Source: Xanthomonas sp.
Lineage (GTDB): Bacteria; Pseudomonadota; Gammaproteobacteria; Xanthomonadales; Xanthomonadaceae
Length of the DNA: 64,000 nucleotides
NCBI RefSeq assembly: GCF_017163755.1
Contig: NZ_JAFIWC010000011.1
Location: 62,001-126,000, forward strand
Direction of reading: 5' to 3'
The translations under genes and the position numbers were made by a program. How positions within the stretch are numbered: position 1 is the first letter of the stretch; the number at the start of each line of letters is the position of its first letter. The notes under the pieces were generated by a model. The model did not search any database. It had not been told where the DNA came from and worked only from the letters and a program-made list of their open reading frames with translations. Of this stretch, positions 6,326 to 53,363 are shown in pieces.

Positions 6326-7660
6326 TCACTCGCTGAGCTTGCGGATCAGCTTGTCCCAGTCCTCGCGCAGCTTGCCGTCGGTCTCCATCAGGTGCTTGAT
6401 CTGGCGGCAGGCGTGCAGCACGGTGGTGTGGTCGCGCCCGGCAAAGGCATCGCCGATCTCCGGCAGGCTGTGCTCGGTCAGTTCCTTGGTCAGCGCCATG
6501 GCCACCTGCCGCGGACGCGCCAGCGAGCGCGTGCGCCGCTTGGACAGCAGGTCCTTGATCTGCAGGCCGTAGTAGTCGGCCACGGTCTTCTGGATGTTGG
6601 GGATGCCGATCGCCTGCTGCTGCGCGCGCAACAGGTCGCGCAGGGTCTCCTGGGCGAACTCGGTGGTGATCGCGCGGCCGGTGAAGTTGGCGCGGGCGGC
6701 CAGCGTGTTGAGCGCGCCTTCCAGGTCGCGCACGTTCGAGCGCATCTTCTTGGCGATCAGGAACGCCACGTCGTCCGGGATCTCCGCGCCGCGCTCGCGC
6801 GCCTTGGCCAGCACGATCGCCGCGCGGGTCTCGAAGTCGGGCGGATCGATCGCCACCGACAGGCCCCAGGCCAGGCGCGACTTCAGCCGCGGCTCCAGGC
6901 CTTCGACCTCGCGCGGGTAGCGGTCGCAGGTCAGGATGATCTGCTGGCGGCCGTCGAACAGCGCGTTGAAGGTGTGGAAGAACTCCTCCTGCGTGCGGTC
7001 CTTGCCGGCGAAGAACTGGATGTCGTCGATCAGCAGCGCGTCCACCTGCTGGAACTGGCGCTTGAACTGGTCCATGGTCTTGTCCTGCAGCGCACGGATC
7101 ATCGCGCTGAAGAACTGTTCCGAGCGCAGGTACATCACCCGCGCGTGGGGGTTCTGCTCGCGCATCGCGTTGCCGGCGGCGAACATCAGGTGGGTCTTGC
7201 CCAGGCCGGTGCCGCCGTACAGCAGCAGTGGGTTGTGCGCGCGGTCGCCAGGCTTCTGCGCCGCCTGCACCGCCGCGGCCAGGCCGAGCTGGTTGCTGCG
7301 GCCTTCGACGAAGTTGGCGAAGGTGTAGTGCGAATCCAGGTTGCCGGCGAACGGTTCCAGCAACGGCGCCGGCGGCTTGGTCGCGCTGACCGGTTCGGCG
7401 ACGGGCGCCGGTTCCGGCGCGCGCGGGCGCGAGCCGACCTGCAGCGCCACCTCGCCGGAACCGGCGAAATAGGTCATCAGTTCGCGGATGCGCGCCAGGT
7501 AGCGATCGCGCACCTGTTCGACGATGAACGCGTTCGGGGCGTACAGGACCATGCTGTTGTCATGGCGCTGTTCGGCTTGCAGCGGTTTCAACCAGGTGTG
7601 AACGTCTTCGGCTGGAAATTCAGCTTCCAGACGTTCCAGGCAACGGGGCCAAGCATCCAT
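6326..7660 (-). CDS. dnaA: Chromosomal replication initiator protein DnaA
   Basis: DnaA is the AAA+ protein that binds DnaA boxes and melts oriC. The 444-residue protein has the N-terminal domain I ([20 protein letters not shown]), a Pro/Ala-rich linker near residues 78-105, Walker [10 protein letters not shown], Walker [10 protein letters not shown], and the domain IV DNA-binding signature [15 protein letters not shown]. The start ATG at 7660 is followed by a domain I typical of the family. It is divergent from rpmH across a 257-base gap. Confidence 0.98.
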
Positions 7661-49974: not shown

Positions 49975-50934
49975 ATGCTCGACGCACCCAAGACCGCCGT
50001 GCTGGTGGTGAACCTAGGCACCCCCGATGCGCCCACCGCGCCGGCGGTCAGTCGCTACCTGGCCGAATTCCTCGGCGATAGGCGGGTGGTCGCGATCCCG
50101 CGGCTGCTGTGGTGGCCGCTGCTGAACTGGGTGATCCTGCCGCGGCGTTCGCCGCGCTCGGCCGAGAAGTACGCGCTGGTGTGGCTGCCGGAAGGCTCGC
50201 CGCTGGCGGTCTACACCCGCCGCCTGGCCGAGGGCATGCAGCGCGAGTTGCCCGCGCACCGCGTGGCCTGGGCGATGCGCTACGGCCAGCCGGCGCTGGC
50301 GCCGGCGCTGGACGCGCTGCGCGATGCCGGCGTGGCGCGCATCGTGGTGCTGCCGCTGTATCCGCAGTATTCGACCACCACCACCGCGTCGATCGAGGAC
50401 GTGGTGCAGGGGTGGCAGGCGCGCAACCGGCAGTTGCCGGTGACGCTGATCGAGGACTACCCGACCGACCCGGCATGGGTCGAGGCGGTGGCCGACAGCG
50501 TGCGCGCGCACTGGGCGCAGCACGGGCGCGGCGAGACACTGTTCTTCTCCTTCCACGGCCTGCCGCAGCGCGTGGCCGACAACGGCGATCCCTACCCGCA
50601 GCGCTGCGTGGCCAGCGCGCAGGCGATCGCCGCCGCGCTGGGCCTGGCCGCGGACCAGTGGCAGCTGGGTTACCAGTCGCGCTTCGGCGCCGAGCGCTGG
50701 CTGCAGCCGTACGCCGAGCCGACGCTGTGGGCGCTGGCCGGGCAGGGCGTGAAACGGGTCGACGTGGTCTGTCCCGGCTTCGCCACCGATTGCCTGGAGA
50801 CGCTGGAGGAAGTGGCGATGGGCTTCGTCGAGACCTGTGCCGCGCGCGGCATGCAGGTGCGCTACATCCCCTGCCTCAACGACGCGCCGGCGCATGCCCG
50901 CGCGCTGGCGCAGCTGGCCGCGCGCGCCGCATGA
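49975..50934 (+). CDS. hemH: Ferrochelatase
   Basis: HemH inserts ferrous iron into protoporphyrin IX to make protoheme. The 319-residue protein begins [20 protein letters not shown]. The metal-binding His194 lies in [11 protein letters not shown], and the Glu of [14 protein letters not shown] matches the proton-accepting Glu. The upstream in-frame ATG at 49936 would add 13 residues without family support. CACAAT ends six bases before the start codon and no ribosome site is present, so the mRNA may be leaderless. The stop overlaps the next start (ATGA). Confidence 0.96.
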
Positions 50935-51770
50935 GCCTGCGCGAGTTCGCCTGCCCGTCGCGGGTGGGCACGCTGGCGGGGCTGCGCAGCGGCGATCCGC
51001 ACGGGCCCAAGGTGCTGGCGCTGCACGGCTGGCTGGACAACGCCGCCAGCTTCGTGCCGCTTAGCGCACACATGTCGCAGCTGGACCTGGTGATGCTGGA
51101 TCTGCCCGGCCACGGCCACAGCGCGGCGTTGCCGGCCGGCGCGGATTACCTGCTGACCGGCGCGCTGCATCCGTTGCTCGACACGGCCGATGCGCTGGGC
51201 TGGGAACGGTTCGGCGTGATCGGCCACTCGATGGGCGCGGCGATCGCCAGCACCCTGGCCGCGGCGGCGCCGCAGCGGGTCGAGCGGCTGGTGGCGATCG
51301 AGGCGCTGGGCGGGCTGGCCGAAACGGTCGAAGGCACGCTCGCGCGGCTGCGCGACAGCGTCGCCGCCGCGCGCACGCCGAGCCGGCCGCTGCGGGTGTT
51401 TCCGGAGCTGGCCGCGCCGGTGCGCGCGCGGATGCTGGCCAACCAGCTCAGCGAAGGCGCGGCGCGGTTGCTGGTCGAGCGCGGGGTCAGGGCGGTCGAG
51501 GGCGGCTACGTGTGGCGCAGCGACCAGCGCCTGACCCTGCCCACCGCGGTGCGCCTGACCGAGGCCCAGATCCAGGCGCTGCTGGCCGGCATCCAGTGCC
51601 CGGCGCGGGTCATCTACGCCGATCCGCCGCAGGCGTATTTCCCCGAGCCGCTGCGCCGAGAACGCGCCGCGCGGCTGCCGCACGGCCAGCTGCATGTGCT
51701 GCCCGGCACCCACCACCTGCACATGGAACAGCCGGCCGCGGTGGCGGCGCTGCTGGACGGTTTCTTCTGA
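50931..51770 (+). CDS. Alpha/beta-hydrolase fold protein
   Basis: The 279-residue protein has the alpha/beta-hydrolase nucleophile elbow GHSMGAA with the catalytic Ser, the oxyanion region [18 protein letters not shown] and the catalytic His near the C-terminus (TGTHHLHME region). Translation is coupled to hemH by ATGA. It resembles the hydrolases often annotated as MhpC-like. Its substrate is unknown. The possible sigma-28 promoter lies just beyond its stop. Confidence 0.87.
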
Positions 51771-51795
51771 GACTTGTGTCCCGGTAAAAACCCGC

Positions 51796-51822
51796 TAAAG
51801 TTCGCCGCGCGCCTGCCGACAT
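51796..51822 (+). promoter_or_regulatory. Possible sigma-28 (FliA) promoter
   Basis: TAAAGTTC, 11 bases, then GCCGACAT, against the FliA consensus TAAAGTTT-N11-GCCGATAA: 13 of 16 consensus positions match, with exact spacing. It lies 26 bases after the hydrolase stop and points to the 51829-52047 interval, which has no protein gene on that strand. Confidence 0.65.
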
Positions 51823-51828
51823 TAGGCG

Positions 51829-52000
51829 TAGACGCGAGACGTACTGCGTTCGCGGCTCCATCCCGGCGTCCTGACATGCCGGCGTAAAGCCGCCCCAGAT
51901 CGTTCGCTTCGCTGGCGCCGGAGGTCGCGCCAGGCTGGAGGTAGGCGGGGAGAGGGGGCCTGCCGGGCGCTGCGCATGGAGTTCTTCTACCGCAGCGCTG
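51829..52000 (+). ncRNA. Candidate RsmA/CsrA-binding small RNA
   Basis: Downstream of the sigma-28-type promoter the sequence can fold into three consecutive hairpins. Hairpin 1: CTGGCGC/GCGCCAG (51912-51918, 51927-51933) with loop CGGAGGTC. Hairpin 2: GGTAGGC/GCCTGCC (51940-51946, 51958-51964, one G-U pair) with loop GGGGAGAGGGG. Hairpin 3: GCGCTGCG/CGCAGCGC (51967-51974, 51991-51998) with a 16-base loop containing ATGGAG. Each loop shows GGA, and another GGA (51937-51939) lies between hairpins 1 and 2. That is the binding pattern of CsrA/RsmA. The 5' end and the 3' end are inferred, no T-run terminator was found. Transcription has to be tested. Confidence 0.5.
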
Positions 52001-52047
52001 AGGTCAAACGCGCGCCATGCGCCAAACCGCGCCGCCGATGCGCGCGC

Positions 52048-52827
52048 TCAGCCCAGCAACCGCCGCAACTGCGCCTTCAGGCGCCGTCCGTTCTCGTGGA
52101 AATAGTCGCGCTCGGCACGCCAGCCCGGGAAACGCGCTTCCACCTCGCGCCAGAACGCCGGCGAGTGGTTGGCCTGGATCAGGTGGCAGAGCTCGTGCAC
52201 CAGCACGTATTCGAACGCCGACGGCCGCCCCAGCACCAGCGCCAGGTCCAGCGCCATCGAGCCGTCCGGCGCCAGCGATCCCCATTGCGACGACATCACC
52301 TTCAGCCGCAGCCGCGCCGGCGCGCGCGGCAGCGAGGGCAGGTACTTCGGCAGCCAGCGGCCGACGTCGGCGCGCGCCTGCGCTTCGTAGAACTCGCGCA
52401 GCCCGCGCGCGATGGCCGCTTCGCCGGCGCGCGGCGGCAGCTGGAACTGGGCGCCTTCGGCATCCACCTGCAGGCGCGCGTAGCGGCCCTCGCTCCAGCG
52501 CAGCGGCAGGCGCTCGCCGCGCAACGGCAGCCAGCCGGGCACGCCGCGCTGCGGTGCCGGATCGGGGTCCTCGTCGTGGAAGCGCGACAGCTGTTCGCTG
52601 AGCCAGTGGCGATGCTCGAGCAGGAAGCGCTCGCCGGCCACCAGGCTGGCGCGCAGCGGCAGGGTCAGCCGCGCGCCGCGTTCGTCCACGCTGAGCTTGA
52701 TCCGCCGCGCGCGCGGATCGCGCACGCGCAGCACGTCGATGTCGCGCTCGTCCAACCGCAGGCGGACGAGGTCGCGTTCGACCACCGCGGCAGGCGGCGC
52801 GATCAGGCGACGGAGGAAGTCGGGCAT
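52048..52827 (-). CDS. YgjP-type M48-like metallohydrolase
   Basis: The 259-residue protein contains the zinc-protease motif HELCHL followed by NHSPAFWREVEARFPGW, as in the YgjP/SprT-like (DUF45) family. RRIKLSVDERGARLTLP and MSSQWGSLAPDGSMALDLAL are further family signatures. I chose ATG 52827 (MPDFLRRLIAPPA) because the upstream ATG adds only eight residues without support. It is convergent with the candidate small RNA. Substrate unknown. Confidence 0.88.
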   Translation of the reverse strand: MPDFLRRLIAPPAAVVERDLVRLRLDERDIDVLRVRDPRARRIKLSVDERGARLTLPLRASLVAGERFLLEHRHWLSEQLSRFHDEDPDPAPQRGVPGWLPLRGERLPLRWSEGRYARLQVDAEGAQFQLPPRAGEAAIARGLREFYEAQARADVGRWLPKYLPSLPRAPARLRLKVMSSQWGSLAPDGSMALDLALVLGRPSAFEYVLVHELCHLIQANHSPAFWREVEARFPGWRAERDYFHENGRRLKAQLRRLLG

Positions 52828-52851
52828 GCGCACAGCATACCGCCCATGCAT

Positions 52852-53363
52852 GTGCGCACGGCGACAGCGCGCACCGATCGCATCGCATGTTTCAGCTGAA
52901 TGTGTGGCGCCACGCGGAGCAGCCTCTTCAATGATGCACCTGCGTAGCGCGACGAGCGAAGCAGGGAAGCTGGTCGACTTCGCAAGCTGTCGGGACTGGA
53001 GCCCCTCCTACAGTGCACCCAGCCGGCACATCGGCCAACCTTGTAGGAGCGGCTTCAGCCGCGACGAGCGAAGCCGGGAAGCTGGCCGTTCGCAAGCTGT
53101 CGGGACTGGAGCCCTTCCTACAGTGCACCCAGCCGGTACATCGGCCGCCTTGTAGGAGCGGCTTCAGCCGCGACGAGCGAGCCGGGAAGCTGGCCGGTTT
53201 TGAAAGCTGTCGGGACTGAAGCCCCTCCTACAGTGTGCCCAGCCGGCACATCGGTCGCCTTGTAGGAGCGGCTTCAGCCGCGACGAGCGGAGTCGGGAAG
53301 CTGGTCGACTCGCACGCTGGTCGGTAGCGCATCCCGACGCGGCGGGAGCGCGCCCGGCCTCGC
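52852..53363. other. Gene-free stretch containing a repeat array
   Basis: This gap holds no supported gene. From 52942 to about 53320 it is filled by a tandem array; open frames there are produced by the repeat. The remaining bases at 52852-52941 have no recognisable feature. Confidence 0.75.
52942..53320. repeat. Tandem array of about 110-base units
   Basis: About three and a half units, each containing the core GTAGGAGCGGCTTCAGCC (continuing GCGAC) at 53043-53065, 53152-53174 and 53262-53284, spaced 109 and 110 bases. Each is followed by GAGCGAAGCCGGGAAGCTGG and then by an inverted partner (CCTCCTACAGTG or CCTTCCTACAGTG). The same core occurs once in glyS and, with changes, at 19132 and 31552. 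Confidence 0.9.

Follow-up and report, generated by a model that had tools for sequence, protein, structure and literature searches.

A stretch of Xanthomonas DNA of 64,000 nucleotides (64 kb), referred to here in its entirety as the window, is predicted to carry a conserved non-coding RNA with a FliA-type promoter, and this much is well supported by comparison of 20 orthologous sequences. The best reading, which we hold at a probability of about one half, is that the element is a small RNA specific to one clade, driven by FliA and titrating RsmA. The sequestration of RsmA by the candidate RNA and its dependence on FliA are both plausible on the sequence data. From the same data we infer that the predicted GGA loops would bind RsmA, that the element is transcribed, where its transcript would begin and end, and in which direction titration would run. 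The features on which the following account relies are listed below.

50931..51770, + strand: alpha/beta hydrolase gene, the upstream neighbour (PF00561)
51769..51795, + strand: A/T-rich upstream element overlapping the hydrolase stop codon, with 81% mean pairwise identity among 20 sequences
51796..51822, + strand: predicted sigma-28 (FliA) promoter, -35 TAAAGTTC, 11-nt spacer, -10 GCCGACAT, matrix score 20.57
51823..52003, + strand: predicted conserved non-coding RNA, found in every one of the 20 genus genomes, with a probable start near 51829 judged from the -10
51836..51906, + strand: 5' domain of the RNA, made up of outer stem P1, P2 and stem-loop P3; P1 and P2 with one two-sided change each
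51863-51882, + strand: stem-loop P3, loop UCCUGACA in 16 of 20 sequences, stem invariant in all 20
51912..51933, + strand: hairpin H1, 7 pairs, loop CGGAGGTC, GGA at 51920-51922
51940..51964, + strand: hairpin H2, 7 pairs, loop GGGGAGAGGGG, GGA at 51949-51951
51966..51999, + strand: hairpin H3, 9 pairs, loop CATGGAGTTCTTCTAC with AUGGA, GGA at 51978-51980
52048..52851, - strand: YgjP-like metallopeptidase gene, the convergent downstream neighbour (PF01863), present in 20 of 20 loci

The locus and its FliA-type promoter

A preliminary description of this DNA had proposed a sigma-28 site of the form TAAAGTTC-N11-GCCGACAT, and the site is indeed present, 25 nt from the hydrolase stop. Its score was obtained with a matrix built from 11 hand-picked sites 5' of flagellar- or chemotaxis-looking genes of the same genome, with the window site left out. 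By Pfam, the genes behind these training sites include CheW, the MotA family, Cache/HAMP receptors, CheR, FliD, flagellin, FlgM and a response regulator, and a further one is of ParA/MinD type by Pfam and FleN-like by eye. Among 1,024,444 positions (the window and 80 related loci, both strands), a score of 20.57 is reached solely by the window site. When the training sites were left out in turn they scored 18.1-24.1, and because 9 of the 11 exceed 20.57 the site of the window counts as typical of the FliA set and is not the best of all. It has the TAAAGTTT-N11-GCCGATAA-type form by which the FliA regulon is recognised, as do the genome's own late flagellar genes.

A pattern scan of the window's own genome with up to three mismatches returned 73 places versus 50 with a reversed control, and the window site is the sole zero-mismatch match for a pattern that admits this site's letters. 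One-mismatch matches number two, both on contig C7. A one-mismatch site at G000:C7:20900 (L120) stands 5' of a 146-aa ORF that looks secreted by eye and has no Pfam match at 1e-5; this ORF is possibly an undescribed late flagellar gene.

Orthologous promoters are strong in 10 of the 20 loci (18.3-22.3) and moderate in 9 (12.96-13.87; eight with TTAAGTTG..GCCGTCAA and one with TACAGTTG..GCCGACAA). Scores of at least 12.9 occur at 14 of the 1,024,444 positions, which corresponds to a chance of about 0.0005 per 40 positions. In the remaining locus (L027 in G016) the motif is lost, scoring -5.7 in register, with the RNA and FliA both kept; FliA is above cut-off in all 20 genus genomes, that of the window included. 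G016 is the smallest genome among the 20, at 3.5 Mb. With a widened FliA pattern, the site in G018, which has the weaker form, is a two-mismatch match in a genome whose total equals the control (93 versus 93), and the total in G016 is under the control (113 versus 161).

Mean pairwise identity among the 20 sequences rises from 0.53 (53%) just upstream to 0.81 in the short upstream element and 0.83 in the promoter, reaches 0.88 and 0.86 in the two halves of the RNA and falls to 0.43 in the next 60 columns, so that conservation ends at the last hairpin. The upstream element, exemplified by GTGAAGCTTGTGTGTAGAAAAAATTTCGC in L012, has diverged in the window, where the copy is 57.5% identical to the rest, and in some species, such as that of L013, it lies within an ACACAC/GTGTGT inverted repeat. 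It lies just upstream of the -35 and is a possible UP element or activator site.

The gene 5' of the RNA is a chemotaxis receptor (MCPsignal, Pfam) in 11 of the 20 loci and the hydrolase in the other 9. Where receptor genes were fetched, three of four loci (L184, L186, L187) have a FliA site of their own with matrix scores of 25.1-26.3; the receptor gene of G018 (L185) has no FliA site of its own, and the RNA promoter is weaker there too. A FliA-like site (16.6-19.8) also lies about 40-100 nt past the hydrolase stop in six Stenotrophomonas loci (L045, L046, L063, L066, L068, L092), where it occupies the place taken by the receptor or the RNA in the window's genus.

The earlier statement that no protein gene follows the promoter on the + strand agrees with what is seen, as none is evident and the next gene is the convergent ygjP-like one. 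A protein gene on either strand is ruled out: among the 20 orthologues the frames are broken by indels of 1-2 nt within the RNA, and these frame-breaking indels argue against a coding role. A short + strand ORF at 51976 is likewise ruled out by an in-frame stop in the orthologue L025. Scanning of 51600-52300 found no terminator-like, T-tract or sigma-70-like site. Further downstream, at 52900-53250 of the window, the peptide RSGFSRDE is repeated in overlapping ORFs, as judged by eye, and this points to a dispersed repeat element of intergenic type.

Hairpins, GGA motifs and compensatory change

Three GGA-loop stems had been described at 51912-51998, and they were recovered at 51912-51999 with 7-9 pairs each. 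Stems of at least 7 pairs with GGA in the loop, three within 100 nt, form the sole such cluster in the 64 kb on both strands, and dinucleotide shuffles of 51822-52003 gave three stems of this kind in 1 of 2000 cases. With the threshold lowered to at least 6 pairs, 9 of 2000 shuffles did so, and one other cluster appeared in the 64 kb, on the minus strand at 7031-7128. The folding energy of 51823-52050 is no more stable than that of shuffled sequences (z = +1.07).

The structure, consisting of P1, P2, P3, H1, H2 and H3, was drawn from the same 20 sequences. In it 95.3% of helix cells are paired versus 28-44% when the partners are slid, a comparison that favours the drawn structure because it was derived from these sequences. 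By helix, the paired cells amount to 93.5% in H1, 98.6% in H2, 98.8% in H3 and 83% in P1. Stem-preserving changes, whose absence had been named beforehand as refuting, were found: across the 20 genomes six pairs are compensated by two-sided change, against a shuffled mean of 0.9 with none of 500 shuffles as high and 0-2 in the slid versions. Each of the six occurs in one sequence only, and they are distributed as two in H1, two in H2, one in P1 and one in P2, with none in H3 or P3. Nowhere in the RNA is a run of invariant columns longer than in P3, a stem-loop that could be a base-pairing seed or a protein site.

Within the drawn structure GGA is present in each of the three loops in all 20 sequences, which gives the several GGA loops by which an RsmA/CsrA-sequestering RNA is recognised. 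The GGAGA of H2 is invariant. Invariant columns make up 8 of 9 GGA positions versus 8 of 29 other loop positions (one-sided p 0.0018, which is only a guide because the columns were chosen after the alignment had been seen and the rows are related). In H3, a possible apical partner of GGAG breaks the pairing in 4 of 20 sequences, and GGA stays in all 20. In the window, the A that opens the A(N)GGA motif is missing from the loops of H1 and H2. A fourth, unpaired GGA had also been described; it is present in the window at 51937, but there is no GGA there in the other 19 orthologues. These 19 carry one in the 5' domain, at a place where the window has none.

In full-length ensembles the mean pair probability of H2 is at most 0.23 in 19 of 20 sequences, and in all 20 one base of the H3 GGA, the least exposed, has an unpaired probability of at most 0.08. 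When the 3' half is folded in isolation, H1 and H2 are both favoured (at least 0.87 and at least 0.69) in only 10 of 20, and the corresponding H3 value is at most 0.18 in 19 of 20. Of the drawn helices, RNAalifold retains H2 and H3 in its consensus and omits H1, P1, P2 and P3; 4 of the 46 consensus pairs have a two-sided change. Covariation backs H1 and H2; the structure as a whole is favoured neither by the thermodynamic folds nor by RNAalifold.

Distribution and relation to known RNAs

A homology search across the Xanthomonadaceae, as the preliminary description had advised, recovered the element in all 20 genus genomes and noise elsewhere. With blastn the other 19 genomes of the GTDB genus to which the window belongs all match the stretch (E <= 2.3e-20), a sequence model (R1) has one match in each of the 20, and the promoter region and the RNA occur together in 20 of 20. 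Among 149 family genomes drawn for the model search, the 6 of this genus exceed 145 bits; a further 38 genomes match at E <= 0.1 with 19 bits at most, the model reaches at most 13.4 bits against 79 named loci besides X. albilineans, and blastn outside the genus gives at most 45.5 bits over about 33 nt, all of which we take as noise. X. albilineans itself carries the RNA element, and the window's genus is presumably the X. albilineans-type split of Xanthomonas, for which we use the label clade 1.

In the other Xanthomonas branch, none of nine named genomes matches at E <= 0.001 (X. bromi, X. nasturtii, X. hortorum, X. hortorum pv. cynarae, X. euvesicatoria, X. sp. Leaf148, X. arboricola, X. cucurbitae and X. 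melonis). Their hydrolase-ygjP slot holds about 77-622 nt of other sequence, and no diverged copy was seen there. The earlier interpretation stands in part. The sigma-28 promoter and a conserved RNA with several GGA hairpins are supported across the 20 genus genomes; the element is no general trait of Xanthomonas, as it was found in one clade only and is lacking from all nine named genomes outside it.

The sponge RNAs CsrB, CsrC and RsmX/Y/Z are driven by GacA/UvrY-type response regulators. The flaA gene of C. jejuni is sigma-28-dependent, and FlgO of E. coli is a sigma-28-dependent small RNA. Like the Csr and Rsm sponges, which carry several GGA hairpins per short non-coding RNA (PMC5864184, in the part consulted), the predicted RNA has several such hairpins; it has no match to the Rfam CsrB, CsrC or RsmX/Y/Z families over 51000-53000, and Rfam as a whole gave three weak matches there at E <= 10 (CDKN2B-AS_2, twice, and COG2908), far below gathering scores. 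Homologues of Gac-type sponge RNAs are described as unreported in Xanthomonas in the searched text of PMC7694677. An RsmA-sequestering RNA, RsmU (sRX061), is already known in X. campestris pv. campestris, at another locus, and according to passages of the same report it binds RsmA by gel shift and co-immunoprecipitation (PMC7694677). Like the element of the window, RsmU is an RNA of Xanthomonas with several GGA motifs (three or four), but it is processed from the comEA 3'UTR, its long form has a terminator of its own, and it is reported in all sequenced Xanthomonas (passages of PMC7694677), whereas the RNA of the window has a FliA-type promoter, lies at another locus and was found in one clade only. 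Identity of the two is ruled out by the neighbours (hydrolase or receptor and ygjP) and by the absence of the element from 9 of 9 other-branch genomes.

Flagellar output is known to feed back on CsrA in C. jejuni, where the flaA transcript, encoding flagellin, titrates the protein (PMC4894983, in the part consulted); this is a coding mRNA, in contrast to a separate RNA gene. Sigma-28-dependent small RNAs have also been described, namely UhpU, MotR and FliX in E. coli and CjNC1 and CjNC4 in Campylobacter, but these act by base pairing (passages of PMC10578931; PMC4626219), and the word CsrA is absent from the searched text of PMC10578931. In the literature surveyed, with supplementary tables outside its scope, no stand-alone sigma-28-driven CsrA/RsmA sponge was met, nor was any description of the locus.

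Proposed function and competing explanations

The combination of a flagellar-type promoter with hairpins shaped like RsmA sites suggests that flagellum assembly may feed back on RsmA, for which the genome has a single CsrA/RsmA gene. In the proposed mechanism, FliA RNA polymerase would transcribe a stand-alone gene for a small RNA of about 175 nt after hook completion and FlgM export, and the three GGA hairpin loops in the 3' half of that RNA would bind RsmA dimers. Late flagellar expression would in this way leave less free RsmA, and the translation or stability of RsmA targets in motility, virulence and biofilm formation would shift. Were this so, the element might be the first stand-alone small RNA to combine transcription by the flagellar sigma factor with a dedicated role in RsmA/CsrA sequestration, with hook completion directly lowering free RsmA in a clade-specific manner, a tentative claim to which we give somewhat less than an even chance. 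In X. citri, RsmA did not bind the GGA-bearing hrpC or hrpE leaders and bound some other GGA leaders (passages of PMC3937308), and RsmU with every GGA motif changed was still bound by RsmA, in a smaller complex (passages of PMC7694677). Because the X. citri leaders differ and the altered RsmU still binds, motif count alone is no proof of binding.

An unlikely alternative is a FliA-driven RNA whose main mode of action is base pairing by the P3 loop, with the GGA hairpins structural or a minor second function. The loop sequence UCCUGACA, found in 16 of 20 loci, is complementary to ribosome binding sites that contain AGGA, the P3 stem is invariant and the longest invariant run falls in P3, and the sigma-28-dependent base-pairing RNAs of E. 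coli (PMC10578931) and Campylobacter (PMC4626219) offer precedents, as far as the consulted parts of these reports go. Exact matches to GTCAGGAC-N2-10-ATG in the genome, however, number 8 places versus 3 for a reversed control, one of the 8 is the RNA's own antisense, and no convincing target emerges; moreover, none of the three loops loses its GGA, whereas adjacent loop bases vary.

It is improbable, in our estimate, that the RNA is a structured molecule with another partner (the ribosome, Hfq or another protein) or a 3'UTR element of the receptor mRNA, to which the likeness to FliA sites and the GGA motifs would be secondary. Such a reading fits the 11 of 20 loci in which the receptor gene lies immediately upstream, and also the retention of the RNA where the promoter is moderate (9 loci) or lost (1), but the 9 loci with the hydrolase upstream keep the RNA, 8 of them with the promoter, and a score of 12.9 within 40 positions is, as noted, scarcely to be expected by chance. 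That there is no RNA function at all, and that a conserved DNA element or the terminator region of convergent genes has come to resemble an RNA gene by chance, we consider very improbable: in favour of this view, the site does lie between convergent genes in the window and a T-tract terminator was not found, and against it stand the compensatory changes, the borders of conservation, which run from promoter to hairpin, and the hydrolase-ygjP slot of nine other-branch genomes, which lacks the element.

A FliA-driven RNA that titrates RsmA would matter for a part of Xanthomonas biology in which the control of RsmA is largely open and in which the sole antagonist met in the literature, RsmU, is a processed mRNA tail. 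Screens for small RNAs exist for X. campestris and X. oryzae (PMC3744752, PMC2996969 and PMC3039613, each consulted in part); if the element is absent from X. campestris, X. oryzae and X. citri, as it is from nine relatives of the same branch, screens there could not have found it. If the proposed reading is true, such a sponge would tie the Rsm network to the flagellar checkpoint and would offer an easy way to test whether RsmA targets are retuned by late flagellar expression.
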